Part shown: positions 1-64,000 of the stretch, in pieces
Position numbering within the stretch: the stretch's first letter is position 1
Layout: each line of letters opens with the position of its first letter
The notes under the pieces: generated by a model
Databases searched by the model: none
The model's input: the letters and a program-made list of their open reading frames with translations, nothing else
What the model was told of the DNA's origin: nothing
Translations under genes and position numbers: made by a program
From: Mesostigma viride
Taxonomy: Eukaryota; Streptophyta; Mesostigmatophyceae; Mesostigmatales; Mesostigmataceae
Reading direction: 5' to 3'
NCBI GenBank assembly: GCA_009746045.1
Contig: RPFO01000059.1
Span: forward strand, 2,179,716-2,243,715
DNA length: 64,000 bases

Positions 1-169
1 CCAGGGCGCTACAACCGCGCGGGGGCGGCAGACCAGGGTGACACCTGTAAGCTACCCTCACCATTTTTCACAAATGGTTTCCTGTTACCTTCTGTCTGCC
101 AAGTGTTGCCTGAGTGTGATGATGTGGATTGGGAAGTGGCATATGACATGACACTGTCACACATGATGC

Positions 170-24860: not shown

Positions 24861-25404
24861 AAAATATTCTAAGCAATGTCACTTTGTTGTTCATGCATCC
24901 ACGTTTGTCGCACAGCTCGCGCGCCAGGGAATAGCTCTTTGCCACATATGCCTGCTATATGCGCCTGCTTTTGTGCCTCCTTGTCTCTGTTGTGTTTCCT
25001 TCTTTCAGATCTGTTTTCTTGTCTCTGTTGTGTTTCCTTCTTTCAGATCTGTTTCTTGTCTCTGTTGTGTTTCCTTCTTTCAGATCTGTTTTCTTGTCTC
25101 TGTTGTTTTTTCCTCTCTTCGATGTATGTCCTAAAATATTCTAAGCAATGTCACTTTGTTGTTCATGCATCCACGTTTGTCGCACAGCTCGCGCGCCAGG
25201 GAATAGCTCTTTGCCACATATGCCTGCTATATGCGCCTGCTTTTGTGCCTCCTTGTCTCTGTTGTGTTTCCTTCTTTCAGATCTGTTTTCTTGTCTCTGT
25301 TGTGTTTCCTTCTTTCAGATCTGTTTCTTGTCTCTGTTGTGTTTCCTTCTTTCAGATCTGTTTTCTTGTCTCTGTTGTTTTTTCCTCTCTTCGATGTATG
25401 TCCT
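24861..25404 (+). repeat. Tandem duplication, 272 bp x 2, rich in acceptor-like sites
   Basis: Sequence from 24861 repeats from 25133 with a 272-bp period. Inside each copy a roughly 37-bp subrepeat built on CTGTTGTGTTTCCTTCTTTCAG occurs about three times. Each subrepeat is a polypyrimidine tract plus CAG, so the block holds six or so 3' splice-site look-alikes just before the first recognisable exon of the WD40 gene. Confidence 0.8.
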
Positions 25405-25482
25405 TCTCTCAATTGTGTAACGTTCTTTCTTTTGTGCTTGTTCTCTCTTTCCTGTGCTTTCTTTTCTTTTGTGTCTGAGTAG

Positions 25483-25577: not shown

Positions 25578-28500
25578 GTGAGTGGGGGAAAGGAAGCATG
25601 CCTGGGATGTAGGGCATTTGTCGGGTGGGTGGGAGTGCCTGGGATGTAGGGCACTTGTCGGGCGGGTGGGCGTGGGTGGGTGGTATTTTTTTTCTATGTG
25701 GGTGTCTTGCATCTGGGCAAGACAATGGCCTGGCGGTGACAGCGGGAGCACCACACGGGGGACTGCAGGTGGACGCCATAGCATGCCTCGCAAACTTGCA
25801 TGCAAGCACCTCGCAGAGGTGCATCCATGACCACCCGACATGGTGGGCTGTTCATGTCTTGCTGCTCATGGCAAGGGGGGGGCAGGGCGACGAGGCACCA
25901 GGCCAGCGCCGCAAGGAGTACTGCTGCGTTACAAGCCGCCGTGCATTGGGAAGCCTTCATGCCTTCGGGAGGATGCGTGTGTGGTGAATGGGAGCCGGCA
26001 GCCTGTCACCTTGCGGCTGACAGTCACTCTCTTTTGAAAACCTGCCTTTAGTCAGTGTACTGCCTGTTGCCGCTAGGCCTGGCTCACAGCTGTGGATGGG
26101 AGTGACTTTCCAGTATATGGGTCTGATGGCGTCGTGTCAGGGTGCTGGCAAGCCTTGGGACATGGAACCTCAGGGTGGAAGGGAGACCCTGGGTTTATTG
26201 TGTTCAGAGCGATCCACGGCTGTGAAGGGACCCCATTCCCATGGGTTGGAGGTAACAACCCGCATGCCTCCATCACAGCTTGGGTTGCCCTGCTCTGGGT
26301 ACCCCAGCTTTGGGTTGCCTCGTAGTCCTCATCCGCTGCTACAACTGGCTCTCGCTCTTGTTTGCCGCCTTTTGGTGAATGCCTCTTACACTTGCACGGT
26401 CCACACCCTGTCGCGCGCGGCCTTGCTTGTGCCACGCGCCCTTCCTCAACGTCCCTATTGCGTGCTGCCGTGCCTGTGCCACCATGCGTGCACAGGCGTC
26501 GGCCGATCGCAGCGTGCGCGTGTGGGATGGCAGCGGTGTGACGCCCCCCCTCATCCTCAAGGGCCACAAAGTGGGTGGGAAAACTTGTGGCAGGGGTCAT
26601 AGCATGCATCCGGTTGGTGGGCGATAGTGGGACACCAGGTGCGCAATAACGTGCAGCAGGGGTGGCTAGCATGCGTCCAATAGGGGTGGTAGTGGGCAAG
26701 ACTGGTGGCTGCAGGTGCGTTGTAATAGCCAGCTTGTGCCAGCCAAATCGCAAGGCAGCACGTGGCCCTTGTCAGCGGACTCGGTGCCATGCGGCAATCA
26801 TCGCCTGGGGTGGGTCCCGCATATCTCCTTCTGATTGTAGTCCACCATGCACTTGTTGGCGCTTTGCCTCGTGTTGTGGTCGTGTCTGTGTTGCTTGCCC
26901 TTTTCCCCCGCCCGCACAACGGGCGTGGGTGGACAGCATGGTGGCGTATGTCGTGCGTTTAGTCAAGGAATGCACTGGGTGTTGTGGATGCCAGCAGGGG
27001 TGGGATTACCCGTTCTGCAGCAAATGGCGTGTTTCCTTCTCCAGGCTAACTTTGCCAGGCCACTAGGCGCGGGGTGCCATGTCCTGCAGCGGCCACACAA
27101 GGGGACATGGGATGTGCAGGGGATGGGGGCCTTTGATGAGGATGCCACGGGCAAACGCCCCCGGCAGCAAATGGTGGTGGCTCTGCGTACAGCTCTCCCG
27201 TGGACGTGGGGGAGTGGCGGAAGAAAGCAAATAGCTCCTTTTCCCCTTGGCGCCTGTCCTATATTTATCTTGCTTCGCTTCGCAATGTAGGCTGAAAATT
27301 CGGTGCCCCCTTTGCCTCTCACGGGGCGTGTGTGCTGGCATGTATGCGGCGTGGCAGGTGGAGGTATCCGCCATCTGCACGTCACGACTGGGCGCGTTCT
27401 CAGCCGCATCAGGTGAGGGTGGACCCAGTGCTCGACATATAAGCGCATCAGACTGGGTGCACATTGAGGTCTTGTGGATCCAAGCCTGTCAATTCGGCGA
27501 GGATGAATCCGGGCTGATCCGTCAGTAAACATGCCGCGGAAGGGAAGGTCGAGTCGGTGGCAATGCAGGGCCCCTCACTTGAGTCACTGGGCCCCCATGC
27601 TACTGGAATACAAGCGTGGTTGCTGCAGCGCCGCGCGTACATGTGCTGCGCTGGCGTGCCCCCCCACCATGATGGTGCGGCCATCAGTGTGCCCCTCATG
27701 TAGCGTTTCTCATAAATAGCGCGCGCACAGCGTGTGGTTAGGGGGGTATGGGTGGTACCTCGTCACCGCGACAGCAACACGTCCACCTCCATACAAGTAC
27801 CGTGGGACGCTGCTGTACTGGGTGCACGAGAGGGGTTGTATGTGCCTGAGCCGGATGTTATGCGGCACCCAGTGGAGTTGGTATTAGATGGTGCAATATG
27901 GTCACTGTAGCCAGATAATCAATCCCATCTTAAGAACAAAGACCCACGTACTGATCTAATAGTGCACTGCCAGGTTACAGGGTACCTGCGCCAGCGCAGT
28001 GCGCATGCTGGCAGCCGTGAAACAGGCGCACAAACACCGGCAGTAGAGCAGCCGCACAGCCCGTTCTCTTGTCCTTCTTGCCTCGCTCCCACCATGCCGT
28101 CCATGTAGATAGGCCAGCCTCATGGACGCCCAAGTAGAGATACCACAAGTGGCCTTGGAGCGGACGCTGTCGTGATCCATGCGCCTTGGTCCTGCGCCTG
28201 CGCTCGATGGATGGTTCCCCACGCCGCAGGCGATGCATCTGGCAAGCTGCTGGTGTGGTCCGGCTTGTCGCATGCCAAGCTGGCAGCTGTCACCCCCGCC
28301 ACCTTCTCAGTTGGGAGCTCCCCCATCGTCTGCCTGGCGCCCTCCCCGATAAAGGTGCGTGGTTGACACCCTCTCCCTTGAACGCTGCTGCAATGGCAAA
28401 ATTTCTGCACCCAGCCAGATGCAGGTGCGTGGCCGCGTTTCCTTTGTGGTGTGTGCGGTGTTTCCACGTCGCTAGAGCACATGGCCCGCACGGTTCACGT

Positions 28501-31500
28501 GTGCAATGGGGTGTGTTGCTGTGTTGAAAGAATGTATTATGTAGGGCCATCAGGGTGTGCTGGGTGATCGACCAGCTGTAGCCGCAGTTGTGGGTACTGC
28601 CATCTCATGCGGCTCCTTATGCGTGTTTAGTCAAGTGGCATTGCTTGCCCCCACGGTTGGCATGTATACTTATCGGTCGGTAGTGAGGAGACGACAACCC
28701 ATTGTATCACACTGTAATTCCACAGAAGTGATCCACACAAGTCCTTGTGTGTATTGACAGGGGCATGCGGATAGCCTTTGACCTGCGTGCTGGCACAGTC
28801 CACCTCGCCGCCATCGCATACCTTGCCACCTTGCCACCCGCTGTATTGCCCATCGCACACCTTGCCACCGTGCACCACCCGCTGTATTGCCCATCACACA
28901 CCTTGCCACCGTGTACCACCCGCTGTATTGCGCATCGCACACCTTGCCACCGTGTACCACCCGCTGTATTGCGCATCACACACCTTGCCACCGTGTACCA
29001 CCCGCTGTATTGCGCATCGCACACCTTGCCACCGTGTACCACCCGCTGTATTGCGCATCACACACCTTGCCACCGTGTACCACCCGCTGTATTGCGCATC
29101 ACACACCTTGCCACCGTGCACCACCCGCTGTATTGCGCATCACACACCTTGCCACCGTGTACCACCCGCTGTATTGCGCATCGCACACCTTGCCACCGTG
29201 TACCACCCGCTGTATTGCGCATCGCACACCTTGCCACCGTGTACCACCCGCTGTATTGCGCATCACACACCTTGCCACCGTGTACCACCCGCTGTATTGC
29301 CCATCACACACCTTGCCACCGTGTACCACCCGCTGTATTGCGCATCACACACCTTGCCACCGTGTACCACCCGCTGTATTGCCCATCGCACACCTTGCCA
29401 CCGTGCACCACCCGCTGTATTGCGCATCGCACACCTTGCCACCGTGTACCACCCGCTGTATTGCGCATCGCACACCTTGCCACCGTGTACCACCCGCTGT
29501 ATTGCCCATCACACACCTTGCCACCGTGTACCACCCGCTGTATTGCGCATCACACACCTTGCCACCCGCTGTATTGCCCATCGCACACCTTGCCACCGTG
29601 TACCACCCGCTGTATTGCGCATCGCACACCTTGCCACCGTGTACCACCCGCTGTATTGCCATCGCACACCTTGCCACCGTGTACCACCCGCTGTATTGCG
29701 CATCACACACCTTGCCACCGTGTACCACCCGCTGTATTGCGCATCGCACACCTTGCCACCGTGTACCACCCGCTGTATTGCGCATCGCACACCTTGCCAC
29801 CGTGTACCACCCGCTGTATTGCGCATCGCACACCTTGCCACCGTGTACCACCCGCTGTATTGCGCATCGCACACCTTGCCACCGTGTACCACCCGCTGTA
29901 TTGCGCATCACACACCTTGCCACCGTGTACCACCCGCTGTATTGCGCATCGCACACCTTGCCACCGTGTACCACCCGCTGTATTGCGCATCGCACACCTT
30001 GCCACCGTGTACCACCCGCTGTATTGCGCATCGCACACCTTGCCACCGTGTACCACCCGCTGTATTGCGCATCACACACCTTGCCACCGTGTACCACCCG
30101 CTGTATTGCGCATCACACACCTTGCCACCGTGTACCACCCGCTGTATTGCGCATCACACACCTTGCCACCGTGCACCACCCGCTGTATTGCGCATCACAC
30201 ACCTTGCCACCGTGTACCACCCGCTGTATTGCGCATCGCACACCTTGCCACCGTGTACCACCCGCTGTATTGCGCATCACACACCTTGCCACCGTGTACC
30301 ACCCGCTGTATTGCGCATCACACACCTTGCCACCGTGTACCACCCGCTGTATTGCGCATCACACACCTTGCCACCGTGTACCACCCGCTGTATTGCGCAT
30401 CACACACCTTGCCACCGTGTACCACCCGCTGTATTGCGCATCACACACCTTGCCACCGTGTACCACCCGCTGTATTGCGCATCACACACCTTGCCACCCG
30501 CTGTATTGCGCATCACACACCTTGCCACCGTGTACCACCCGCTGTATTGCGCATCACACACCTTGCCACCGTGTACCACCCGCTGTATTGCGCATCACAC
30601 ACCTTGCCACCGTGTACCACCCGCTGTATTGCGCATCACACACCTTGCCACCCGCTGTATTGCGCATCACACACCTTGCCACCGTGTACCACCCGCTGTA
30701 TTGCGCATCGCACACCTTGCCACCGTGTACCACCCGCTGTATTGCGCATCACACACCTTGCCACCGTGTACCACCCGCTGTATTGCGCATCGCACACCTT
30801 GCCACCGTGTACCACCCGCTGTATTGCGCATCACACACCTTGCCACCGTGTACCACCCGCTGTATTGCGCATCACACACCTTGCCACCGTGTACCACCCG
30901 CTGTATTGCGCATCGCACACCTTGCCACCGTGTACCACCCGCTGTATTGCGCATCACACACCTTGCCACCGTGTACCACCCGCTGTATTGCGCATCACAC
31001 ACCTTGCCACCGTGTACCACCCGCTGTATTGCGCATCACACACCTTGCCACCGTGTACCACCCGCTGTATTGCGCATCGCACACCTTGCCACCGTGTACC
31101 ACCCGCTGTATTGCGCATCACACACCTTGCCACCGTGTACCACCCGCTGTATTGCGCATCGCACACCTTGCCACCGTGTACCACCCGCTGTATTGCGCAT
31201 CGCACACCTTGCCACCGTGTACCACCCGCTGTATTGCGCATCGCACACCTTGCCACCGTGTACCACCCGCTGTATTGCGCATCACACACCTTGCCACCGT
31301 GTACCACCCGCTGTATTGCGCATCGCACACCTTGCCACCGTGTACCACCCGCTGTATTGCGCATCGCACACCTTGCCACCGTGTACCACCCGCTGTATTG
31401 CGCATCACACACCTTGCCACCGTGTACCACCCGCTGTATTGCGCATCACACACCTTGCCACCGTGTACCACCCGCTGTATTGCGCATCACACACCTTGCC

Positions 31501-34500
31501 ACCGTGTACCACCCGCTGTATTGCGCATCACACACCTTGCCACCGTGTACCACCCGCTGTATTGCGCATCGCACACCTTGCCACCGTGTACCACCCGCTG
31601 TATTGCGCATCGCACACCTTGCCACCGTGTACCACCCGCTGTATTGCGCATCACACACCTTGCCACCGTGTACCACCCGCTGTATTGCGCATCGCACACC
31701 TTGCCACCGTGTACCACCCGCTGTATTGCGCATCGCACACCTTGCCACCGTGTACCACCCGCTGTATTGCGCATCACACACCTTGCCACCGTGTACCACC
31801 CGCTGTATTGCGCATCGCACACCTTGCCACCGTGTACCACCCGCTGTATTGCGCATCACACACCTTGCCACCGTGTACCACCCGCTGTATTGCCATCACA
31901 CACCTTGCCACCGTGTACCACCCGCTGTATTGCGCATCACACACCTTGCCACCGTGTACCACCCGCTGTATTGCGCATCGCACACCTTGCCACCGTGTAC
32001 CACCCGCTGTATTGCGCATCGCACACCTTGCCACCGTGTACCACCCGCTGTATTGCGCATCGCACACCTTGCCACCGTGTACCACCCGCTGTATTGCCAT
32101 CACACACCTTGCCACCGTGTACCACCCGCTGTATTGCGCATCACACACCTTGCCACCCGCTGTATTGCCATCGCACACCTTGCCACCGTGTACCACCCGC
32201 TGTATTGCGCATCACACACCTTGCCACCGTGTACCACCCGCTGTATTGCGCATCGCACACCTTGCCACCGTGTACCACCCGCTGTATTGCGCATCACACA
32301 CCTTGCCACCGTGTACCACCCGCTGTATTGCGCATCACACACCTTGCCACCGTGTACCACCCGCTGTATTGCGCATCACACACCTTGCCACCGTGTACCA
32401 CCCGCTGTATTGCGCATCGCACACCTTGCCACCGTGTACCACCCGCTGTATTGCGCATCACACACCTTGCCACCGTGTACCACCCGCTGTATTGCGCATC
32501 ACACACCTTGCCACCGTGTACCACCCGCTGTATTGCGCATCACACACCTTGCCACCGTGTACCACCCGCTGTATTGCGCATCACACACCTTGCCACCGTG
32601 TACCACCCGCTGTATTGCGCATCGCACACCTTGCCACCGTGTACCACCCGCTGTATTGCGCATCACACACCTTGCCACCGTGTACCACCCGCTGTATTGC
32701 GCATCACACACCTTGCCACCGTGTACCACCCGCTGTATTGCGCATCACACACCTTGCCACCGTGTACCACCCGCTGTATTGCGCATCGCACACCTTGCCA
32801 CCGTGTACCACCCGCTGTATTGCGCATCACACACCTTGCCACCGTGTACCACCCGCTGTATTGCGCATCGCACACCTTGCCACCGTGTACCACCCGCTGT
32901 ATTGCGCATCGCACACCTTGCCACCGTGTACCACCCGCTGTATTGCGCATCACACACCTTGCCACCGTGTACCACCCGCTGTATTGCGCATCGCACACCT
33001 TGCCACCGTGTACCACCCGCTGTATTGCGCATCGCACACCTTGCCACCGTGTACCACCCGCTGTATTGCGCATCGCACACCTTGCCACCGTGTACCACCC
33101 GCTGTATTGCGCATCGCACACCTTGCCACCGTGTACCACCCGCTGTATTGCGCATCGCACACCTTGCCACCGTGTACCACCCGCTGTATTGCGCATCGCA
33201 CACCTTGCCACCGTGTACCACCCGCTGTATTGCGCATCGCACACCTTGCCACCGTGTACCACCCGCTGTATTGCGCATCGCACACCTTGCCACCGTGTAC
33301 CACCCGCTGTATTGCGCATCACACACCTTGCCACCGTGTACCACCCGCTGTATTGCGCATCGCACACCTTGCCACCGTGTACCACCCGCTGTATTGCGCA
33401 TCGCACACCTTGCCACCGTGTACCACCCGCTGTATTGCGCATCGCACACCTTGCCACCGTGTACCACCCGCTGTATTGCGCATCGCACACCTTGCCACCG
33501 TGTACCACCCGCTGTATTGCGCATCACACACCTTGCCACCGTGTACCACCCGCTGTATTGCGCATCGCACACCTTGCCACCGTGTACCACCCGCTGTATT
33601 GCGCATCGCACACCTTGCCACCGTGTACCACCCGCTGTATTGCGCATCGCACACCTTGCCACCGTGTACCACCCGCTGTATTGCGCATCGCACACCTTGC
33701 CACCGTGTACCACCCGCTGTATTGCGCATCGCACACCGTGTACCACCCGCTGTATTGCGCATCACACACCTTGCCACCGTGTACCACCCGCTGTATTGCG
33801 CATCGCACACCTTGCCACCGTGTACCACCCGCTGTATTGCGCATCACACACCTTGCCACCGTGTACCACCCGCTGTATTGCGCATCGCACACCTTGCCAC
33901 CGTGTACCACCCGCTGTATTGCGCATCGCACACCTTGCCACCGTGTACCACCCGCTGTATTGCGCATCGCACACCTTGCCACCGTGTACCACCCGCTGTA
34001 TTGCGCATCGCACACCTTGCCACCGTGTACCACCCGCTGTATTGCGCATCGCACACCTTGCCACCGTGTACCACCCGCTGTATTGCGCATCACACACCTT
34101 GCCACCGTGTACCACCCGCTGTATTGCGCATCGCACACCTTGCCACCGTGTACCACCCGCTGTATTGCGCATCGCACACCTTGCCACCGTGTACCACCCG
34201 CTGTATTGCGCATCGCACACCTTGCCACCGTGTACCACCCGCTGTATTGCGCATCACACACCTTGCCACCGTGTACCACCCGCTGTATTGCGCATCGCAC
34301 ACCTTGCCACCGTGTACCACCCGCTGTATTGCGCATCACACACCTTGCCACCGTGTACCACCCGCTGTATTGCGCATCACACACCTTGCCACCGTGTACC
34401 ACCCGCTGTATTGCGCATCACACACCTTGCCACCGTGTACCACCCGCTGTATTGCGCATCACACACCTTGCCACCGTGTACCACCCGCTGTATTGCGCAT

Positions 34501-37500
34501 CACACACCTTGCCACCGTGTACCACCCGCTGTATTGCGCATCACACACCTTGCCACCGTGTACCACCCGCTGTATTGCGCATCGCACACCTTGCCACCGT
34601 GTACCACCCGCTGTATTGCGCATCACACACCTTGCCACCGTGTACCACCCGCTGTATTGCGCATCACACACCTTGCCACCGTGTACCACCCGCTGTATTG
34701 CGCATCGCACACCTTGCCACCGTGTACCACCCGCTGTATTGCGCATCACACACCTTGCCACCGTGTACCACCCGCTGTATTGCGCATCGCACACCTTGCC
34801 ACCGTGTACCACCCGCTGTATTGCGCATCGCACACCTTGCCACCGTGTACCACCCGCTGTATTGCGCATCACACACCTTGCCACCGTGTACCACCCGCTG
34901 TATTGCGCATCGCACACCTTGCCACCGTGTACCACCCGCTGTATTGCGCATCGCACACCTTGCCACCGTGTACCACCCGCTGTATTGCGCATCACACACC
35001 TTGCCACCGTGTACCACCCGCTGTATTGCGCATCACACACCTTGCCACCGTGTACCACCCGCTGTATTGCGCATCACACACCTTGCCACCGTGTACCACC
35101 CGCTGTATTGCGCATCGCACACCTTGCCACCGTGTACCACCCGCTGTATTGCGCATCACACACCTTGCCACCGTGTACCACCCGCTGTATTGCGCATCAC
35201 ACACCTTGCCACCGTGTACCACCCGCTGTATTGCGCATCACACACCTTGCCACCGTGTACCACCCGCTGTATTGCGCATCACACACCTTGCCACCGTGTA
35301 CCACCCGCTGTATTGCGCATCACACACCTTGCCACCGTGTACCACCCGCTGTATTGCGCATCGCACACCTTGCCACCGTGTACCACCCGCTGTATTGCGC
35401 ATCACACACCTTGCCACCGTGTACCACCCGCTGTATTGCGCATCGCACACCTTGCCACCGTGTACCACCCGCTGTATTGCGCATCACACACCTTGCCACC
35501 GTGTACCACCCGCTGTATTGCGCATCACACACCTTGCCACCGTGTACCACCCGCTGTATTGCGCATCGCACACCTTGCCACCGTGTACCACCCGCTGTAT
35601 TGCGCATCGCACACCTTGCCACCGTGTACCACCCGCTGTATTGCGCATCACACACCTTGCCACCGTGTACCACCCGCTGTATTGCGCATCGCACACCTTG
35701 CCACCGTGTACCACCCGCTGTATTGCGCATCACACACCTTGCCACCGTGTACCACCCGCTGTATTGCGCATCGCACACCTTGCCACCGTGTACCACCCGC
35801 TGTATTGCGCATCACACACCTTGCCACCGTGTACCACCCGCTGTATTGCGCATCGCACACCTTGCCACCGTGTACCACCCGCTGTATTGCGCATCACACA
35901 CCTTGCCACCGTGTACCACCCGCTGTATTGCGCATCGCACACCGTGTACCACCCGCTGTATTGCGCATCACACACCTTGCCACCGTGTACCACCCGCTGT
36001 ATTGCGCATCGCACACCTTGCCACCGTGTACCACCCGCTGTATTGCGCATCACACACCTTGCCACCGTGTACCACCCGCTGTATTGCGCATCACACACCT
36101 TGCCACCGTGTACCACCCGCTGTATTGCGCATCGCACACCTTGCCACCGTGTACCACCCGCTGTATTGCGCATCGCACACCTTGCCACCGTGTACCACCC
36201 GCTGTATTGCGCATCGCACACCTTGCCACCGTGTACCACCCGCTGTATTGCGCATCACACACCTTGCCACCGTGTACCACCCGCTGTATTGCGCATCACA
36301 CACCTTGCCACCGTGTACCACCCGCTGTATTGCGCATCACACACCTTGCCACCGTGTACCACCCGCTGTATTGCGCATCACACACCTTGCCACCGTGTAC
36401 CACCCGCTGTATTGCGCATCACACACCTTGCCACCGTGTACCACCCGCTGTATTGCGCATCACACACCTTGCCACCGTGTACCACCCGCTGTATTGCGCA
36501 TCGCACACCTTGCCACCGTGTACCACCCGCTGTATTGCGCATCACACACCTTGCCACCGTGTACCACCCGCTGTATTGCGCATCACACACCTTGCCACCG
36601 TGTACCACCCGCTGTATTGCGCATCACACACCTTGCCACCGTGTACCACCCGCTGTATTGCGCATCACACACCTTGCCACCGTGTACCACCCGCTGTATT
36701 GCGCATCACACACCTTGCCACCGTGTACCACCCGCTGTATTGCGCATCACACACCTTGCCACCGTGTACCACCCGCTGTATTGCGCATCGCACACCTTGC
36801 CACCGTGTACCACCCGCTGTATTGCGCATCACACACCTTGCCACCGTGTACCACCCGCTGTATTGCGCATCACACACCTTGCCACCGTGTACCACCCGCT
36901 GTATTGCGCATCGCACACCTTGCCACCGTGTACCACCCGCTGTATTGCGCATCACACACCTTGCCACCGTGTACCACCCGCTGTATTGCGCATCACACAC
37001 CTTGCCACCGTGTACCACCCGCTGTATTGCGCATCGCACACCTTGCCACCGTGTACCACCCGCTGTATTGCGCATCACACACCTTGCCACCGTGTACCAC
37101 CCGCTGTATTGCGCATCACACACCTTGCCACCGTGTACCACCCGCTGTATTGCGCATCACACACCTTGCCACCGTGTACCACCCGCTGTATTGCGCATCA
37201 CACACCTTGCCACCGTGTACCACCCGCTGTATTGCGCATCACACACCTTGCCACCGTGTACCACCCGCTGTATTGCGCATCACACACCTTGCCACCGTGT
37301 ACCACCCGCTGTATTGCGCATCGCACACCTTGCCACCGTGTACCACCCGCTGTATTGCGCATCGCACACCTTGCCACCGTGTACCACCCGCTGTATTGCG
37401 CATCACACACCTTGCCACCGTGTACCACCCGCTGTATTGCGCATCACACACCTTGCCACCGTGTACCACCCGCTGTATTGCGCATCGCACACCTTGCCAC

Positions 37501-40500
37501 CGTGTACCACCCGCTGTATTGCGCATCACACACCTTGCCACCCGCTGTATTGCCCATCACACACCTTGCCACCGTGTACCACCCGCTGTATTGCGCATCA
37601 CACACCTTGCCACCGTGTACCACCCGCTGTATTGCGCATCGCACACCTTGCCACCGTGTACCACCCGCTGTATTGCGCATCACACACCTTGCCACCGTGT
37701 ACCACCCGCTGTATTGCGCATCGCACACCTTGCCACCCGCTGTATTGCCCATCACACACCTTGCCACCGTGTACCACCCGCTGTATTGCGCATCGCACAC
37801 CTTGCCACCGTGTACCACCCGCTGTATTGCGCATCACACACCTTGCCACCGTGTACCACCCGCTGTATTGCGCATCACACACCTTGCCACCGTGTACCAC
37901 CCGCTGTATTGCGCATCGCACACCTTGCCACCGTGTACCACCCGCTGTATTGCGCATCGCACACCTTGCCACCGTGTACCACCCGCTGTATTGCGCATCA
38001 CACACCTTGCCACCGTGTACCACCCGCTGTATTGCGCATCACACACCTTGCCACCCGCTGTATTGCGCATCGCACACCTTGCCACCGTGTACCACCCGCT
38101 GTATTGCGCATCACACACCTTGCCACCGTGTACCACCCGCTGTATTGCGCATCGCACACCTTGCCACCGTGTACCACCCGCTGTATTGCGCATCACACAC
38201 CTTGCCACCGTGTACCACCCGCTGTATTGCGCATCACACACCTTGCCACCGTGTACCACCCGCTGTATTGCGCATCACACACCTTGCCACCGTGTACCAC
38301 CCGCTGTATTGCGCATCACACACCTTGCCACCGTGTACCACCCGCTGTATTGCGCATCACACACCTTGCCACCGTGTACCACCCGCTGTATTGCGCATCA
38401 CACACCTTGCCACCGTGTACCACCCGCTGTATTGCGCATCACACACCTTGCCACCGTGTACCACCCGCTGTATTGCGCATCACACACCTTGCCACCGTGT
38501 ACCACCCGCTGTATTGCGCATCGCACACCGTGTACCACCCGCTGTATTGCGCATCACACACCTTGCCACCGTGTACCACCCGCTGTATTGCGCATCGCAC
38601 ACCTTGCCACCGTGTACCACCCGCTGTATTGCGCATCACACACCTTGCCACCGTGTACCACCCGCTGTATTGCGCATCGCACACCTTGCCACCGTGTACC
38701 ACCCGCTGTATTGCGCATCACACACCTTGCCACCGTGTACCACCCGCTGTATTGCGCATCACACACCTTGCCACCGTGTACCACCCGCTGTATTGCGCAT
38801 CACACACCTTGCCACCGTGTACCACCCGCTGTATTGCGCATCGCACACCTTGCCACCGTGTACCACCCGCTGTATTGCGCATCACACACCTTGCCACCGT
38901 GTACCACCCGCTGTATTGCGCATCGCACACCTTGCCACCGTGTACCACCCGCTGTATTGCGCATCACACACCTTGCCACCGTGTACCACCCGCTGTATTG
39001 CGCATCACACACCTTGCCACCCGCTGTATTGCGCATCGCACACCTTGCCACCGTGTACCACCCGCTGTATTGCGCATCGCACACCTTGCCACCGTGTACC
39101 ACCCGCTGTATTGCGCATCACACACCTTGCCACCGTGTACCACCCGCTGTATTGCGCATCACACACCTTGCCACCGTGTACCACCCGCTGTATTGCGCAT
39201 CGCACACCTTGCCACCGTGTACCACCCGCTGTATTGCGCATCACACACCTTGCCACCGTGTACCACCCGCTGTATTGCGCATCACACACCTTGCCACCGT
39301 GTACCACCCGCTGTATTGCGCATCACACACCTTGCCACCGTGTACCACCCGCTGTATTGCGCATCACACACCTTGCCACCGTGTACCACCCGCTGTATTG
39401 CGCATCACACACCTTGCCACCGTGTACCACCCGCTGTATTGCGCATCACACACCTTGCCACCGTGTACCACCCGCTGTATTGCGCATCGCACACCTTGCC
39501 ACCGTGTACCACCCGCTGTATTGCGCATCGCACACCTTGCCACCGTGTACCACCCGCTGTATTGCGCATCACACACCTTGCCACCGTGTACCACCCGCTG
39601 TATTGCGCATCACACACCTTGCCACCGTGTACCACCCGCTGTATTGCGCATCACACACCTTGCCACCGTGTACCACCCGCTGTATTGCGCATCACACACC
39701 TTGCCACCGTGTACCACCCGCTGTATTGCGCATCACACACCTTGCCACCGTGTACCACCCGCTGTATTGCGCATCACACACCTTGCCACCGTGTACCACC
39801 CGCTGTATTGCGCATCACACACCTTGCCACCGTGTACCACCCGCTGTATTGCGCATCGCACACCTTGCCACCGTGTACCACCCGCTGTATTGCGCATCAC
39901 ACACCTTGCCACCGTGTACCACCCGCTGTATTGCGCATCACACACCTTGCCACCCGCTGTATTGCGCATCGCACACCTTGCCACCGTGTACCACCCGCTG
40001 TATTGCGCATCGCACACCTTGCCACCGTGTACCACCCGCTGTATTGCGCATCACACACCTTGCCACCGTGTACCACCCGCTGTATTGCGCATCGCACACC
40101 TTGCCACCGTGTACCACCCGCTGTATTGCGCATCGCACACCTTGCCACCGTGTACCACCCGCTGTATTGCGCATCACACACCTTGCCACCCGCTGTATTG
40201 CGCATCGCACACCGTGTACCACCCGCTGTATTGCGCATCGCACACCTTGCCACCGTGTACCACCCGCTGTATTGCGCATCGCACACCTTGCCACCGTGTA
40301 CCACCCGCTGTATTGCGCATCACACACCTTGCCACCGTGTACCACCCGCTGTATTGCGCATCACACACCTTGCCACCGTGTACCACCCGCTGTATTGCGC
40401 ATCACACACCTTGCCACCCGCTGTATTGCGCATCGCACACCTTGCCACCGTGTACCACCCGCTGTATTGCGCATCACACACCTTGCCACCGTGTACCACC

Positions 40501-43500
40501 CGCTGTATTGCGCATCGCACACCTTGCCACCGTGTACCACCCGCTGTATTGCGCATCACACACCTTGCCACCGTGTACCACCCGCTGTATTGCGCATCAC
40601 ACACCTTGCCACCGTGTACCACCCGCTGTATTGCGCATCACACACCTTGCCACCGTGTACCACCCGCTGTATTGCGCATCACACACCTTGCCACCGTGTA
40701 CCACCCGCTGTATTGCGCATCACACACCTTGCCACCGTGTACCACCCGCTGTATTGCGCATCACACACCTTGCCACCGTGTACCACCCGCTGTATTGCGC
40801 ATCGCACACCTTGCCACCGTGTACCACCCGCTGTATTGCGCATCACACACCTTGCCACCGTGTACCACCCGCTGTATTGCGCATCACACACCTTGCCACC
40901 GTGTACCACCCGCTGTATTGCGCATCACACACCTTGCCACCGTGTACCACCCGCTGTATTGCGCATCACACACCTTGCCACCGTGTACCACCCGCTGTAT
41001 TGCGCATCACACACCTTGCCACCGTGTACCACCCGCTGTATTGCGCATCACACACCTTGCCACCGTGTACCACCCGCTGTATTGCGCATCGCACACCTTG
41101 CCACCGTGTACCACCCGCTGTATTGCGCATCACACACCTTGCCACCGTGTACCACCCGCTGTATTGCGCATCACACACCTTGCCACCCGCTGTATTGCGC
41201 ATCGCACACCTTGCCACCGTGTACCACCCGCTGTATTGCGCATCACACACCTTGCCACCGTGTACCACCCGCTGTATTGCGCATCGCACACCTTGCCACC
41301 GTGTACCACCCGCTGTATTGCGCATCACACACCTTGCCACCGTGTACCACCCGCTGTATTGCGCATCGCACACCTTGCCACCGTGTACCACCCGCTGTAT
41401 TGCGCATCACACACCTTGCCACCGTGTACCACCCGCTGTATTGCGCATCACACACCTTGCCACCCGCTGTATTGCGCATCGCACACCTTGCCACCGTGTA
41501 CCACCCGCTGTATTGCGCATCGCACACCTTGCCACCGTGTACCACCCGCTGTATTGCGCATCACACACCTTGCCACCGTGTACCACCCGCTGTATTGCGC
41601 ATCACACACCTTGCCACCGTGTACCACCCGCTGTATTGCGCATCACACACCTTGCCACCGTGTACCACCCGCTGTATTGCGCATCACACACCTTGCCACC
41701 GTGTACCACCCGCTGTATTGCGCATCACACACCTTGCCACCGTGTACCACCCGCTGTATTGCGCATCACACACCTTGCCACCGTGTACCACCCGCTGTAT
41801 TGCGCATCGCACACCTTGCCACCGTGTACCACCCGCTGTATTGCGCATCGCACACCTTGCCACCGTGTACCACCCGCTGTATTGCGCATCACACACCTTG
41901 CCACCGTGTACCACCCGCTGTATTGCGCATCGCACACCTTGCCACCGTGTACCACCCGCTGTATTGCGCATCACACACCTTGCCACCGTGTACCACCCGC
42001 TGTATTGCGCATCGCACACCTTGCCACCGTGTACCACCCGCTGTATTGCGCATCGCACACCTTGCCACCGTGTACCACCCGCTGTATTGCGCATCGCACA
42101 CCTTGCCACCGTGTACCACCCGCTGTATTGCCATCACACACCTTGCCACCGTGTACCACCCGCTGTATTGCGCATCACACACCTTGCCACCCGCTGTATT
42201 GCCATCGCACACCTTGCCACCGTGTACCACCCGCTGTATTGCGCATCGCACACCTTGCCACCGTGTACCACCCGCTGTATTGCGCATCGCACACCTTGCC
42301 ACCGTGTACCACCCGCTGTATTGCGCATCACACACCTTGCCACCGTGTACCACCCGCTGTATTGCGCATCACACACCTTGCCACCGTGTACCACCCGCTG
42401 TATTGCGCATCGCACACCTTGCCACCGTGTACCACCCGCTGTATTGCGCATCGCACACCTTGCCACCGTGTACCACCCGCTGTATTGCGCATCGCACACC
42501 TTGCCACCGTGTACCACCCGCTGTATTGCGCATCACACACCTTGCCACCGTGTACCACCCGCTGTATTGCGCATCGCACACCTTGCCACCGTGTACCACC
42601 CGCTGTATTGCGCATCGCACACCTTGCCACCGTGTACCACCCGCTGTATTGCGCATCGCACACCTTGCCACCGTGTACCACCCGCTGTATTGCGCATCAC
42701 ACACCTTGCCACCGTGTACCACCCGCTGTATTGCGCATCGCACACCTTGCCACCGTGTACCACCCGCTGTATTGCGCATCACACACCTTGCCACCGTGTA
42801 CCACCCGCTGTATTGCGCATCACACACCTTGCCACCGTGTACCACCCGCTGTATTGCGCATCACACACCTTGCCACCGTGTACCACCCGCTGTATTGCGC
42901 ATCACACACCTTGCCACCGTGTACCACCCGCTGTATTGCGCATCGCACACCTTGCCACCCGCTGTATTGCGCATCACACACCTTGCCACCGTGTACCACC
43001 CGCTGTATTGCGCATCGCACACCTTGCCACCGTGTACCACCCGCTGTATTGCGCATCGCACACCTTGCCACCGTGTACCACCCGCTGTATTGCGCATCGC
43101 ACACCTTGCCACCGTGTACCACCCGCTGTATTGCGCATCACACACCTTGCCACCGTGTACCACCCGCTGTATTGCGCATCGCACACCTTGCCACCGTGTA
43201 CCACCCGCTGTATTGCGCATCGCACACCTTGCCACCGTGTACCACCCGCTGTATTGCGCATCACACACCTTGCCACCGTGTACCACCCGCTGTATTGCGC
43301 ATCACACACCTTGCCACCGTGTACCACCCGCTGTATTGCGCATCACACACCTTGCCACCCGCTGTATTGCGCATCACACACCTTGCCACCGTGTACCACC
43401 CGCTGTATTGCGCATCGCACACCTTGCCACCGTGTACCACCCGCTGTATTGCGCATCGCACACCTTGCCACCGTGTACCACCCGCTGTATTGCGCATCAC

Positions 43501-46500
43501 ACACCTTGCCACCGTGTACCACCCGCTGTATTGCGCATCACACACCTTGCCACCGTGTACCACCCGCTGTATTGCGCATCGCACACCTTGCCACCGTGTA
43601 CCACCCGCTGTATTGCGCATCACACACCTTGCCACCGTGTACCACCCGCTGTATTGCGCATCACACACCTTGCCACCGTGTACCACCCGCTGTATTGCGC
43701 ATCGCACACCTTGCCACCGTGTACCACCCGCTGTATTGCGCATCACACACCTTGCCACCGTGTACCACCCGCTGTATTGCGCATCGCACACCTTGCCACC
43801 GTGTACCACCCGCTGTATTGCGCATCGCACACCTTGCCACCGTGTACCACCCGCTGTATTGCGCATCACACACCTTGCCACCGTGTACCACCCGCTGTAT
43901 TGCGCATCACACACCTTGCCACCGTGTACCACCCGCTGTATTGCGCATCGCACACCTTGCCACCGTGTACCACCCGCTGTATTGCGCATCACACACCTTG
44001 CCACCGTGTACCACCCGCTGTATTGCGCATCACACACCTTGCCACCGTGTACCACCCGCTGTATTGCGCATCGCACACCTTGCCACCGTGTACCACCCGC
44101 TGTATTGCGCATCGCACACCTTGCCACCGTGTACCACCCGCTGTATTGCGCATCACACACCTTGCCACCGTGTACCACCCGCTGTATTGCGCATCACACA
44201 CCTTGCCACCGTGTACCACCCGCTGTATTGCGCATCGCACACCTTGCCACCGTGTACCACCCGCTGTATTGCGCATCGCACACCTTGCCACCGTGTACCA
44301 CCCGCTGTATTGCGCATCACACACCTTGCCACCGTGTACCACCCGCTGTATTGCGCATCACACACCTTGCCACCGTGTACCACCCGCTGTATTGCGCATC
44401 ACACACCTTGCCACCGTGTACCACCCGCTGTATTGCGCATCGCACACCTTGCCACCGTGTACCACCCGCTGTATTGCGCATCACACACCTTGCCACCGTG
44501 TACCACCCGCTGTATTGCGCATCGCACACCTTGCCACCGTGTACCACCCGCTGTATTGCGCATCACACACCTTGCCACCGTGTACCACCCGCTGTATTGC
44601 GCATCACACACCTTGCCACCCGCTGTATTGCGCATCGCACACCTTGCCACCGTGTACCACCCGCTGTATTGCGCATCGCACACCTTGCCACCGTGTACCA
44701 CCCGCTGTATTGCGCATCACACACCTTGCCACCGTGTACCACCCGCTGTATTGCGCATCACACACCTTGCCACCGTGTACCACCCGCTGTATTGCGCATC
44801 GCACACCTTGCCACCGTGTACCACCCGCTGTATTGCGCATCACACACCTTGCCACCGTGTACCACCCGCTGTATTGCGCATCACACACCTTGCCACCGTG
44901 TACCACCCGCTGTATTGCGCATCACACACCTTGCCACCGTGTACCACCCGCTGTATTGCGCATCACACACCTTGCCACCGTGTACCACCCGCTGTATTGC
45001 GCATCACACACCTTGCCACCGTGTACCACCCGCTGTATTGCGCATCACACACCTTGCCACCGTGTACCACCCGCTGTATTGCGCATCGCACACCTTGCCA
45101 CCGTGTACCACCCGCTGTATTGCGCATCACACACCTTGCCACCGTGTACCACCCGCTGTATTGCGCATCACACACCTTGCCACCGTGTACCACCCGCTGT
45201 ATTGCGCATCACACACCTTGCCACCCGCTGTATTGCGCATCGCACACCTTGCCACCGTGTACCACCCGCTGTATTGCGCATCACACACCTTGCCACCGTG
45301 TACCACCCGCTGTATTGCGCATCGCACACCTTGCCACCGTGTACCACCCGCTGTATTGCGCATCGCACACCTTGCCACCGTGTACCACCCGCTGTATTGC
45401 GCATCGCACACCTTGCCACCGTGTACCACCCGCTGTATTGCGCATCACACACCTTGCCACCGTGTACCACCCGCTGTATTGCGCATCACACACCTTGCCA
45501 CCGTGTACCACCCGCTGTATTGCGCATCACACACCTTGCCACCGTGTACCACCCGCTGTATTGCGCATCACACACCTTGCCACCGTGTACCACCCGCTGT
45601 ATTGCGCATCACACACCTTGCCACCGTGTACCACCCGCTGTATTGCGCATCGCACACCTTGCCACCGTGTACCACCCGCTGTATTGCGCATCACACACCT
45701 TGCCACCGTGTACCACCCGCTGTATTGCGCATCACACACCTTGCCACCGTGTACCACCCGCTGTATTGCGCATCACACACCTTGCCACCGTGTACCACCC
45801 GCTGTATTGCGCATCGCACACCTTGCCACCGTGTACCACCCGCTGTATTGCGCATCACACACCTTGCCACCGTGTACCACCCGCTGTATTGCCCATCACA
45901 CACCTTGCCACCCGCTGTATTGCCCATCGCACACCTTGCCACCGTGTACCACCCGCTGTATTGCGCATCGCACACCTTGCCACCGTGTACCACCCGCTGT
46001 ATTGCGCATCGAACACCTTGCCACCGTGTACCACCCGCTGTATTGCGCATCGCACACCTTGCCACCGTGTACCACCCGCTGTATTGCGCATCGCACACCT
46101 TGCCACCGTGCACCACCCGCTGTATTGCGCATCACACACCTTGCCACCCGCTGTATTGCGCATCGCACACCGTGTACCACCCGCTGTATTGCGCATCGCA
46201 CACCTTGCCACCGTGTACCACCCGCTGTATTGCGCATCGCACACCTTGCCACCGTGTACCACCCGCTGTATTGCGCATCACACACCTTGCCACCGTGTAC
46301 CACCCGCTGTATTGCCCATCACACACCTTGCCACCGTGTACCACCCGCTGTATTGCGCATCACACACCTTGCCACCCGCTGTATTGCGCATCGCACACCT
46401 TGCCACCGTGTACCACCCGCTGTATTGCGCATCACACACCTTGCCACCGTGTACCACCCGCTGTATTGCGCATCGCACACCTTGCCACCGTGTACCACCC

Positions 46501-49500
46501 GCTGTATTGCGCATCACACACCTTGCCACCGTGTACCACCCGCTGTATTGCGCATCACACACCTTGCCACCGTGTACCACCCGCTGTATTGCGCATCACA
46601 CACCTTGCCACCGTGTACCACCCGCTGTATTGCGCATCACACACCTTGCCACCGTGTACCACCCGCTGTATTGCGCATCACACACCTTGCCACCGTGTAC
46701 CACCCGCTGTATTGCGCATCACACACCTTGCCACCGTGTACCACCCGCTGTATTGCGCATCGCACACCTTGCCACCGTGTACCACCCGCTGTATTGCGCA
46801 TCACACACCTTGCCACCGTGTACCACCCGCTGTATTGCGCATCACACACCTTGCCACCGTGTACCACCCGCTGTATTGCGCATCACACACCTTGCCACCG
46901 TGCACCACCCGCTGTATTGCGCATCACACACCTTGCCACCGTGTACCACCCGCTGTATTGCGCATCACACACCTTGCCACCGTGTACCACCCGCTGTATT
47001 GCGCATCACACACCTTGCCACCGTGTACCACCCGCTGTATTGCGCATCGCACACCTTGCCACCGTGTACCACCCGCTGTATTGCGCATCACACACCTTGC
47101 CACCGTGTACCACCCGCTGTATTGCGCATCACACACCTTGCCACCCGCTGTATTGCCATCGCACACCTTGCCACCGTGTACCACCCGCTGTATTGCGCAT
47201 CACACACCTTGCCACCGTGTACCACCCGCTGTATTGCGCATCGCACACCTTGCCACCGTGTACCACCCGCTGTATTGCGCATCACACACCTTGCCACCGT
47301 GTACCACCCGCTGTATTGCCATCGCACACCTTGCCACCGTGTACCACCCGCTGTATTGCCATCACACACCTTGCCACCGTGTACCACCCGCTGTATTGCG
47401 CATCACACACCTTGCCACCCGCTGTATTGCGCATCGCACACCTTGCCACCGTGTACCACCCGCTGTATTGCGCATCGCACACCTTGCCACCGTGTACCAC
47501 CCGCTGTATTGCGCATCACACACCTTGCCACCGTGTACCACCCGCTGTATTGCGCATCAACACCTTGCCACCGTGTACCACCCGCTGTATTGCCCATCAC
47601 ACACCTTGCCACCGTGTACCACCCGCTGTATTGCGCATCACACACCTTGCCACCGTGCACCACCCGCTGTATTGCGCATCACACACCTTGCCACCGTGCA
47701 CCACCCGCTGTATTGCGCATCGAACACCTTGCCACCGTGTACCACCCGCTGTATTGCGCATCGCACACCTTGCCACCGTGTACCACCCGCTGTATTGCGC
47801 ATCGCACACCTTGCCACCGTGTACCACCCGCTGTATTGCGCATCACACACCTTGCCACCGTGTACCACCCGCTGTATTGCGCATCGCACACCTTGCCACC
47901 GTGTACCACCCGCTGTATTGCGCATCACACACCTTGCCACCGTGTACCACCCGCTGTATTGCCCATCGCACACCTTGCCACCGTGCACCACCCGCTGTAT
48001 TGCGCATCGCACACCTTGCCACCGTGTACCACCCGCTGTATTGCGCATCGCACACCTTGCCACCGTGTACCACCCGCTGTATTGCCATCACACACCTTGC
48101 CACCGTGTACCACCCGCTGTATTGCGCATCACACACCTTGCCACCCGCTGTATTGCCCATCGCACACCTTGCCACCGTGTACCACCCGCTGTATTGCGCA
48201 TCGCACACCTTGCCACCGTGCACCACCCGCTGTATTGCCCATCGCACACCTTGCCACCGTGTACCACCCGCTGTATTGCGCATCACACACCTTGCCACCG
48301 TGCACCACCCGCTGTATTGCGCATCACACACCTTGCCACCGTGTACCACCCGCTGTATTGCGCATCGCACACCTTGCCACCGTGTACCACCCGCTGTATT
48401 GCGCATCGCACACCTTGCCACCGTGTACCACCCGCTGTATTGCGCATCGCACACCTTGCCACCGTGTACCACCCGCTGTATTGCGCATCACACACCTTGC
48501 CACCGTGTACCACCCGCTGTATTGCCCATCGCACACCTTGCCACCGTGTACCACCCGCTGTATTGCGCATCGCACACCTTGCCACCGTGCACCACCCGCT
48601 GTATTGCGCATCGCACACCTTGCCACCGTGTACCACCCGCTGTATTGCGCATCACACACCTTGCCACCGTGTACCACCCGCTGTATTGCGCATCGCACAC
48701 CTTGCCACCGTGCACCACCCGCTGTATTGCGCATCACACACCTTGCCACCGTGTACCACCCGCTGTATTGCGCATCACACACCTTGCCACCGTGTACCAC
48801 CCGCTGTATTGCGCATCACACACCTTGCCACCGTGTACCACCCGCTGTATTGCGCATCACACACCTTGCCACCGTGTACCACCCGCTGTATTGCGCATCG
48901 CACACCTTGCCACCCGCTGTATTGCCATCACACACCTTGCCACCGTGTACCACCCGCTGTATTGCGCATCGCACACCTTGCCACCGTGTACCACCCGCTG
49001 TATTGCGCATCGCACACCTTGCCACCGTGTACCACCCGCTGTATTGCCCATCGCACACCTTGCCACCGTGTACCACCCGCTGTATTGCCCATCACACACC
49101 TTGCCACCGTGCACCACCCGCTGTATTGCGCATCGCACACCTTGCCACCGTGTACCACCCGCTGTATTGCGCATCGCACACCTTGCCACCGTGTACCACC
49201 CGCTGTATTGCGCATCACACACCTTGCCACCGTGTACCACCCGCTGTATTGCGCATCACACACCTTGCCACCGTGTACCACCCGCTGTATTGCGCATCAC
49301 ACACCTTGCCACCGCTGTATTGCCCATCACACACCTTGCCACCGTGTACCACCCGCTGTATTGCGCATCGCACACCTTGCCACCGTGTACCACCCGCTGT
49401 ATTGCGCATCGCACACCTTGCCACCGTGTACCACCCGCTGTATTGCGCATCACACACCTTGCCACCGTGTACCACCCGCTGTATTGCGCATCACACACCT

Positions 49501-52500
49501 TGCCACCGTGTACCACCCGCTGTATTGCCCATCGCACACCTTGCCACCGTGTACCACCCGCTGTATTGCCCATCACACACCTTGCCACCGTGCACCACCC
49601 GCTGTATTGCGCATCACACACCTTGCCACCGTGTACCACCCGCTGTATTGCGCATCGCACACCTTGCCACCGTGCACCACCCGCTGTATTGCGCATCGCA
49701 CACCTTGCCACCGTGTACCACCCGCTGTATTGCGCATCACACACCTTGCCACCGTGCACCACCCGCTGTATTGCGCATCACACACCTTGCCACCGTGTAC
49801 CACCCGCTGTATTGCCCATCACACACCTTGCCACCGTGCACCACCCGCTGTATTGCGCATCACACACCTTGCCACCGTGTACCACCCGCTGTATTGCGCA
49901 TCACACACCTTGCCACCCGCTGTATTGCGCATCACACACCTTGCCACCGTGCACCACCCGCTGTATTGCCCATCGCACACCTTGCCACCGTGTACCACCC
50001 GCTGTATTGCCATCACACACCTTGCCACCGTGTACCACCCGCTGTATTGCGCATCACACACCTTGCCACCCGCTGTATTGCGCATCGCACACCTTGCCAC
50101 CGTGCACCACCCGCTGTATTGCGCATCACACACCTTGCCACCGTGTACCACCCGCTGTATTGCCCATCACACACCTTGCCACCGTGTACCACCCGCTGTA
50201 TTGCGCATCACACACCTTGCCACCGTGTACCACCCGCTGTATTGCGCATCACACACCTTGCCACCGTGTACCACCCGCTGTATTGCGCATCGCACACCTT
50301 GCCACCGTGTACCACCCGCTGTATTGCGCATCACACACCTTGCCACCGTGTACCACCCGCTGTATTGCCCATCGCACACCTTGCCACCGTGTACCACCCG
50401 CTGTATTGCCCATCACACACCTTGCCACCGTGTACCACCCGCTGTATTGCGCATCACACACCTTGCCACCCGCTGTATTGCGCATCGCACACCTTGCCAC
50501 CGTGCACCACCCGCTGTATTGCGCATCGCACACCTTGCCACCGTGTACCACCCGCTGTATTGCCCATCACACACCTTGCCACCGTGTACCACCCGCTGTA
50601 TTGCGCATCACACACCTTGCCACCGTGCACCACCCGCTGTATTGCGCATCGCACACCTTGCCACCGTGCACCACCCGCTGTATTGCGCATCGCACACCTT
50701 GCCACCGTGTACCACCCGCTGTATTGCCCATCGCACACCTTGCCACCGTGTACCACCCGCTGTATTGCCCATCACACACCTTGCCACCGTGTACCACCCG
50801 CTGTATTGCGCATCACACACCTTGCCACCCGCTGTATTGCGCATCGCACACCTTGCCACCGTGCACCACCCGCTGTATTGCGCATCACACACCTTGCCAC
50901 CGTGTACCACCCGCTGTATTGCCCATCACACACCTTGCCACCGTGTACCACCCGCTGTATTGCGCATCACACACCTTGCCACCGTGTACCACCCGCTGTA
51001 TTGCGCATCACACACCTTGCCACCCGCTGTATTGCGCATCGCACACCTTGCCACCGTGCACCACCCGCTGTATTGCGCATCGCACACCTTGCCACCGTGT
51101 ACCACCCGCTGTATTGCGCATCGCACACCTTGCCACCGTGTACCACCCGCTGTATTGCGCATCACACACCTTGCCACCGTGTACCACCCGCTGTATTGCG
51201 CATCACACACCTTGCCACCTTGTATTACCCGCTGTATTGCGCATCGCACACCTTGCCACCGTGTACCACCCGCTGTATTGCCCATCACACACCTTGCCAC
51301 CGTGTACCACCCGCTGTATTGCGCATCACACACCTTGCCACCCGCTGTATTGCCCATCACACACCTTGCCACCGTGCACCACCCGCTGTATTGCGCATCG
51401 CACACCTTGCCACCGTGTACCACCCGCTGTATTGCGCATCACACACCTTGCCACCGTGTACCACCCGCTGTATTGCGCATCGCACACCTTGCCACCGTGT
51501 ACCACCCGCTGTATTGCGCATCACACACCTTGCCACCGTGTACCACCCGCTGTATTGCCCATCACACACCTTGCCACCGTGTACCACCCGCTGTATTGCC
51601 CATCACACACCTTGCCACCGTGTACCACCCGCTGTATTGCGCATCACACACCTTGCCACCGTGCACCACCCGCTGTATTGCGCATCGCACACCTTGCCAC
51701 CGTGTACCACCCGCTGTATTGCGCATCGCACACCTTGCCACCGTGTACCACCCGCTGTATTGCGCATCACACACCTTGCCACCGTGTACCACCCGCTGTA
51801 TTGCCCATCACACACCTTGCCACCGTGTACCACCCGCTGTATTGCGCATCACACACCTTGCCACCGTGCACCACCCGCTGTATTGCGCATCACACACCTT
51901 GCCACCGTGTACCACCCGCTGTATTGCGCATCGCACACCTTGCCACCGTGTACCACCCGCTGTATTGCGCATCGCACACCTTGCCACCGTGTACCACCCG
52001 CTGTATTGCGCATCACACACCTTGCCACCGTGTACCACCCGCTGTATTGCGCATCACACACCTTGCCACCGTGTACCACCCGCTGTATTGCGCATCGCAC
52101 ACCTTGCCACCGTGTACCACCCGCTGTATTGCGCATCGCACACCTTGCCACCGTGTACCACCCGCTGTATTGCGCATCACACACCTTGCCACCGTGTACC
52201 ACCCGCTGTATTGCGCATCGCACACCTTGCCACCGTGTACCACCCGCTGTATTGCGCATCACACACCTTGCCACCGTGTACCACCCGCTGTATTGCCCAT
52301 CGCACACCTTGCCACCGTGTACCACCCGCTGTATTGCCCATCGCACACCTTGCCACCGTGTACCACCCGCTGTACGAGACCATCAGGCAGCAGAGCTGGT
52401 GGTCGGTTCCGAGGACGGCAGCATAAAGGTGGTCAACGCCTTGTCGGGGGACGTTCTGCAGTCGCTCACGTCGCACGAGGGCGGGGTAAGTCCGTGTCCT

Positions 52501-63898: not shown

Positions 63899-64000
63899 GT
63901 GCGTGGCGGCTTTTAGACTGATGCGGGGACGTTGGCAGATTTACTGCGGGGTGTGTGGGGTGGCAGGTTGTGAGCATCTATGGGGCGCGATGTCTTGGCA
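63899..64000 (+). other. Start of the next intron of the Gemin5-like gene
   Basis: Begins GTGCGT. If read through, the frame meets a stop at 63914-63916, which supports splicing because the dimerisation and C-terminal domains are still missing. Confidence 0.55.

Follow-up and report, generated by a model that had tools for sequence, protein, structure and literature searches.

An AG-free 23.6-kb minisatellite beside the acceptor of a putative Gemin5-like gene intron in Mesostigma viride

INTRODUCTION

The AG-exclusion zone (AGEZ) of an intron runs from the acceptor to the first upstream AG, AGs in the first 12 nt being disregarded, and the human examples in the accessible text of Gooding et al. 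2006 (PMC1431707) include zones of 381 nt and 438 nt in which the branch point is placed towards the end away from the acceptor. Here, we describe a 41-bp minisatellite array that appears to fill an intron of a Gemin5-like gene in Mesostigma viride. The window is the whole 64,000-nt stretch that was analysed (GenBank assembly GCA_009746045.1, contig RPFO01000059.1, positions 2,179,716 to 2,243,715 of the forward strand), and all coordinates are counted from its first letter. As far as that text describes AGEZs and distant-branch-point exons, the array shares with them an AG-free stretch before an acceptor; it differs in being a 23.6-kb tandem repeat without a YTNAY motif. AG-exclusion zones are already known (PMC1431707, PMC10946897).

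Long intronic tandem repeats are found in the Drosophila Y genes kl-3, kl-5 and ORY, whose gigantic introns are rich in satellites (PMC6508621, PMC8248703); the kl-5 introns were probed as (GUCUU)n from the AAGAC satellite and the kl-3 introns as (AAUAU)n (PMC8248703). Like our array, these two transcribed repeats are AG-free. Unlike our array, they are five-base satellites in introns that are called megabase-sized, and the accessible text connects them neither with AG nor with acceptor position. Only AAGAC is informative on orientation, being AG-free solely when transcribed as GUCUU; the loops of kl-5 and ORY contain further satellites, so the Drosophila case amounts to one coin toss and is a lead, not evidence. 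In short tracts before acceptors, AG is the dimer for which the strongest under-representation was both predicted and reported (accessible text of PMC10946897), which matches what we see at the other acceptors of the gene described here; that work concerns selection on point mutations, as opposed to the repeat amplification considered here. Among the open-licence PMC papers listed, judged by titles and the starts of abstracts, we recognised no AG-free intronic array, and found none that combined AGEZ, tandem repeat and intron, or satellite, intron, branch point and AG-free.

RESULTS

The array lacks AG on the sense strand

The array (28799..52374, + strand) comprises 583 units between 584 anchors. 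Tandem Repeats Finder reported a 41-bp period, 583.9 copies and 94% matches. When split at the fixed anchor, the units measured 41 bp (533 units), 31 bp (31), 40 bp (13), 33 bp (5) and 30 bp (1). They fall into 18 types, two of which, one base apart, cover 473 of the 583 units. Minisatellite units range from 10 to 100 bp, and these near-identical, head-to-tail 41-bp units fit the definition.

A preliminary description of this DNA had proposed that neither the unit nor its variants contain AG. A count by computer bears this out: there is no AG within 28799-52376, none of the 18 unit types has one, and the bordering AGs lie at 28797 and 52377, as described. Base composition predicts 779 AGs for this tract, somewhat fewer than the 'over a thousand' anticipated. 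With a length of 23,580, the resulting AG-to-AG gap exceeds all others in the window, of which the next, within another array, is 374. The opposite strand does carry AG: CT, the sense-strand form of its AG, occurs 1,166 times against 2,154 expected. AG is not singled out among the purine-purine steps, which are almost missing as a class (GG 0, GA 2, AA 3).

Donor-like GT had been called abundant. This holds literally (1,657 GT), but the array has only one GTNNG (168 expected when the array is shuffled) and no GTRAG (12 expected). Because the unit-level p for freedom from GTNNG is 0.78, the scarcity of GTNNG carries no meaning by itself. The near-absence of AA, AG and GA also removes stop codons, so every sense frame is open and three overlapping open reading frames (ORFs) of 7,927, 7,883 and 7,942 aa span the array. 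A gene finder could take these ~7,900-codon frames for a giant protein.

AG-freedom is about one event

We rejected the base-composition null that gives 779 for the entire array, since the units are copies of one another and the array amounts to a single repeated 41-mer. All 583 units belong to 18 variants of that 41-mer, and the AG-freedom of the array is therefore about one event. The probability that a 41-mer is AG-free is 0.18 when the unit is shuffled, 0.08 among 41-mers of the rest of the window, and 0.17 among those of the gene's putative introns. For a unit without any purine-purine step, a property noticed post hoc, the corresponding values are 1.7e-4, 0.003 and 0.010.

Mutation of the consensus unit seldom produces AG. 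Of 123 single substitutions, 15 create AG and none of these is a transition, because each purine has pyrimidine neighbours; one-base deletions never do (0/33) and internal-deletion junctions do so in 41 of 1,189 cases. By our own reading, the visible variants of the 18 types represent about ten independent mutations, mostly transitions, purine-to-pyrimidine changes and deletions. With so few events and 15/123 substitutions creating AG, the absence of AG among the variants is unremarkable. Selection on single copies, which these data had no power to show, was rejected as a reading.

A Gemin5-like gene and its inferred intron

The exon translations on either side of the array are WD40-like. Upstream, the exon at 28230..28354 (+) ends with SPIK in phase 0 at the donor AAAG/GTGCGTGG, as judged from frames, splice signals and the Gemin5 match of the joined exons; downstream, the exon at 52387..52485 (+), AAELVVGSEDGSIKVVNALSGDVLQSLTSHEGG, is followed by the donor GTAAGT and is placed by its frame and the Gemin5 alignment. 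With a 358-aa query of joined exons, four Gemin5 sequences were the only PDB matches below 1e-10 (best E 7.7e-26). The alignment starts 11 residues before the 28354/52387 junction and passes through it without a gap when these positions are joined, for which reason we infer a 24,032-nt intron at 28355..52386 (+), 98% of it array. This intron has GTGCGT...CAG ends, lies in phase 0 and leaves the protein continuous over the junction, as spliceosomal introns do; its retention would bring a stop after three codons. The acceptor AG that the description placed at 52385-52386 is thereby supported by the reading frame and the alignment. Further downstream, Gemin5 tops the match list of the ORF at 62252-63913, in which a TPR_GEMI5 match falls under the Pfam cut-off (25.4 of 33 bits). 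Shorter exon pieces or pairs match other WD40 proteins better than Gemin5, as is usual for short WD40 pieces.

The intron ends in 12 nt of non-repeat sequence (52375..52386, +), with a GAG at 52376-52378 and the acceptor CAG at 52384-52386. Because the GAG ends 8 nt before the acceptor G, it is ignored by the 12-nt rule, and under the definition of Gooding et al. (PMC1431707) the AGEZ extends from 52386 back to 28798 (23,588 nt).

Other acceptors of the gene also have AG-free zones

The distances to the first upstream AG at the eight other acceptors examined in the gene are 124, 170, 67, 69, 77, 51, 113 and 149 nt, where the background median is 11 (n = 2,287; p = 8e-7). The first of these values belongs to the acceptor at 25478; for the seven without it, no gap falls below the 95.9th percentile of the background (2,289 gaps; p = 3.8e-6). 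The premise that introns keep AG-free zones before their acceptors is thus borne out in this gene at 8 of 8 acceptors (gaps of 51-170 nt), so that one would expect a repeat directly abutting an acceptor to lack AG.

Before these eight acceptors AG is the most depleted of the 16 dinucleotides (median gap 95 vs 12), followed by AA (p = 0.001), GA (0.008) and TA (0.048), with GG at 0.098. In the last 100 nt of the eight introns, 71% of 480 overlapping 41-mers are AG-free, a share that is not independent of the gap test, and 7.3% have no purine-purine step. Elsewhere, AG-free 41-mers make up 8% of the non-array window and 17% of the gene's putative introns, and 41-mers free of purine-purine steps 0.55% (window outside arrays, n = 3,278) and 1.0%, respectively. 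Near acceptors, such units therefore exceed their frequency in the window 9- to 13-fold and their frequency in the gene's introns at large 4- to 8-fold.

Unit variety along the array

The greatest variety of units is found in the acceptor-side part (45274..52374, +). In bins of 58 units, with the last 3 units placed in a separate bin, the entropy of unit types is 2.4-3.0 bits on the acceptor side, falls to 1.1-1.5 in the middle and stands at 2.0 for the left edge. Units outside the two main types account for 70 of 174 in unit numbers 406-580 vs 26 of 348 in 58-406. Such a distribution would be expected if the units at the acceptor end were older and those in the middle were homogenised later.

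Regular higher-order repeats were sought and rejected (unit-type autocorrelation ≤0.14 at lags 1-29). The longest repeated block of units is 21 units long, compared with 9-14 in 20 shuffles, and some block duplication has therefore taken place. A structured sense-strand RNA was likewise rejected on the basis of one 410-nt piece (z = +0.69 vs shuffles). The antisense strand of the piece at 40000-40409, which is not the transcript of the Gemin5-like gene, folds better than shuffles (z = -5.4). An exact match to a 29-base piece of the unit was absent from viral_contigs and genome_contigs, from which the window's own genome was possibly excluded; this search thus brought no relative of the array to light.

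The branch point

Under the scanning model, an AG is bypassed only when it is within 12-15 nt of the branch point (accessible text of PMC1431707), and from a branch point farther upstream than 28797 the AG at that position would normally be chosen; otherwise, the branch point would lie in the array. The nearest upstream YTNAY is TTGAC at 28778-28782, with its A at 28781, 16 nt before AG 28797 and just beyond the range, and a branch site there is nearly, not quite, excluded. TTGAC is part of an acceptor-like site (28778..28798, +) that continues to GGCACAG.

Judged from the sequence, the branch point is most likely in the last units of the array. The consensus unit has a single U-N-A core, ATCAC, which occurs at 337 places in the array, and we can only speculate that it is used as a branch site. 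The last CATCAC (52257..52262, +) would offer A 52261, 125 nt before the intron end, as a speculative branch point. From any branch site in the array, the first AGs encountered would be those at 52377 and 52385, leaving the intron spliceable. Acceptors favour CAG over GAG, and by this preference the CAG ending at 52386 would be chosen over the GAG ending at 52378.

In the last 180 nt of eight introns (25478 being left out), a scan for YTNAY gave a match within the AG-free zone for 5 of the 7 non-focal introns (acceptors 26494, 27356, 52974, 57095 and 57851), with none for 28228, 61936 or the focal intron. These matches were too few for a branch motif of the gene.

Other arrays of the gene carry AG

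The comparator arrays were placed in introns of the gene by our own assignment. On the sense strand, a 27-mer array (53483..54197, +) assigned to a later intron has 27 AGs; another 41-mer array (59788..60623, +), which starts 10 nt into the intron beginning at 59778, has 80 AGs and no CT; and the arrays at 61304-61694, 60812-61225 and 24861-25404 have 25, 4 and 14 AGs. Most of these AG-bearing arrays sit well away from an acceptor. Complete lack of particular dinucleotides also recurs, with CT, TC and TT missing from 59788-60623 and AA, CA and CC from 61304-61694.

The preliminary description had suggested that only an AG-free unit could expand here. With arrays carrying 27, 80, 25 and 14 AGs, this does not hold for the gene's introns generally, and the claim is limited to the last stretch before an acceptor. 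A narrower rule may apply, namely that only AG-free units can expand in that last stretch.

DISCUSSION

Origin of the array

We lean towards the reading that the array grew from the acceptor-proximal AG-exclusion zone of an intron in the Gemin5-like gene and inherited its AG-freedom. A seed 41-mer from this zone would have been AG-free as splicing already required; slippage and unequal exchange would have amplified it, mostly away from the acceptor, and homogenisation would have spread the AG-free unit over 23.6 kb. Purifying selection on each copy would not be needed, because transitions cannot make AG in the unit. The acceptor zone is the likelier source of the seed because 41-mers that are AG-free or free of purine-purine steps are commoner near acceptors, and the array ends just 12 nt before the exon side of its acceptor. 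The earlier proposal that splicing shaped the array therefore survives in part: AG-free zones do precede the acceptors, but a purging of AG over the entire array is not supported, given one homogenised unit, the equal absence of GG and the inability of transitions to create AG.

Several observations weigh against growth from the acceptor zone. The focal acceptor at 52386 is weak on a matrix built from eight sites (-0.94, equalled or beaten by 72% of 1,543 AGs) and is outscored by the neighbouring AGs at 28798 (5.09), 52390 (3.34) and 52393 (5.67); the last two are out of frame, and the matrix is poor, with left-out true acceptors scoring from -1.4 to 5.2. The scan found no YTNAY anywhere in the array. 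Four of the comparison acceptors (25478, 26494, 57851 and 61936) were already in the list of AG gaps before the exons were set; frames also back them, and the four outside that list have gaps of 67, 69, 77 and 51 nt, at the 95.9th-99.0th percentile. The dependence of the AG-free share on the gap test has the same bearing. The left edge of the array is also varied (12 of 58 units outside the two main types), which allows readings of the variety other than growth away from the acceptor. Finally, 78 nt separate the end of the AG-bearing array at 24861-25404 from the acceptor near 25482, and the last AG of that array (25354) is 128 nt from it.

The unit could instead have been AG-free by chance, unrelated to any splicing zone and adjacent to the acceptor by coincidence. 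We regard such an accident of the founder unit as rather unlikely, though a unit-level p of only 0.08-0.18 favours it, GG is equally missing, the arrays at 59788-60623 and 61304-61694 lack other dinucleotides, the enrichment near acceptors is weaker against introns than against the window, and an array with AGs lies 78 nt from another acceptor. It leaves unexplained the position 12 nt before the acceptor and the gradient of unit variety, and 41-mers free of purine-purine steps are scarce away from acceptors (0.55% of the window, 1.0% of introns). A role for splicing of a different kind, the strong form of the view in the preliminary description, would be continuing selection, in which any unit that gained AG would become a cryptic acceptor, each unit having branch and pyrimidine signals, and its carriers would be removed, so that splicing would keep all 23.6 kb AG-free. 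The absence of AG from all variants, including those of the diverse acceptor-side part, the strong AG depletion before the gene's acceptors, and the report, in the accessible text of Gooding et al. 2006 (PMC1431707), that gene expression suffers when AGs are inserted into a large exclusion zone are in keeping with this. From about ten visible mutations, however, at most about one AG would be expected without selection, and GG, a dinucleotide without a function in acceptors, is equally at zero; we consider continuing selection improbable.

Selection might also have acted on an open frame, were the array exonic and translated, with the scarcity of AA, AG and GA reflecting freedom from stop codons. 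The three sense ORFs (7,927, 7,883 and 7,942 aa) and the acceptor-like GGCACAG ending at 28798 would suit this. However, if 28354 is joined to 28799, the next exon brings a stop at 52424 in the frame that results, and plain retention brings one after three codons; since 41, the unit length, is not divisible by 3, gaining or losing copies would alter the frame; the two exons align to Gemin5 gaplessly across their junction once the array is left out; and stop-freedom has a unit-level p of 0.32. With open frames as its sole support and no frame continuous with the flanking exons, a coding array was rejected as very improbable.

Splicing as a filter on intronic repeats

A broader generalisation, which we put forward as doubtful, is that splicing filters the tandem repeats on the acceptor side of introns by sequence and by orientation, letting only those expand there whose units are AG-free or nearly free of purine-purine steps. 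Units with next to no purine-purine steps would also have few GTRAG donors, GAR enhancers or stop codons. The array would then be an extreme case, a 23.6-kb AG-exclusion zone offering hundreds of interchangeable branch sites to one acceptor, and the filter would explain why the AAGAC satellite of Drosophila kl-5 is transcribed as the AG-free GUCUU. If proximity to an acceptor decides which repeats grow, the composition and strand of intronic satellites would be predictable from splicing; if so, long AG-free arrays would also test the range of the spliceosome's acceptor search and its choice among equal branch sites. The array is a concrete, checkable locus; as a single event, it proves no rule.

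Further features of the window

Short tandem repeats occur inside two of the AG-free zones, at 57759-57807 (a 21-mer repeated 2.3 times, acceptor 57851) and 61846-61877 (a 15-mer repeated 2.1 times, acceptor 61936); it is possible that they are early stages of the same array-growing process. At 59751-60623, the unit GAAGCAGGTGTGGGTG... of the second 41-mer array resembles the donor boundary AAGAAGCAG/GTGGGTG, and the array starts 10 nt after the donor. On this resemblance, the array at 59788-60623 may be a donor-seeded counterpart.

The region at 24861-25404, upstream of the acceptor near 25482, has a 272-bp direct duplication (100% matches) that includes 38-mers with an acceptor-like TTTCCTTCTTTCAG. 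At 53338-54213, the 27-mer array follows the exon at 52976 and is open in the frame of that exon to ~54220, with a 9-residue repeat like WTGTSVLAA; the array itself (53483-54197) is probably intronic because a donor-like GTGCGT lies at ~53411. Within the 64,000 nt there was no Rfam match at gathering score and no tRNA was found. Near the left end of the window, ORFs at 167-3549 have matches to the integrase core (rve) and RVT_2, below the Pfam cut-offs, and look like the remnant of a Copia-type retrotransposon.

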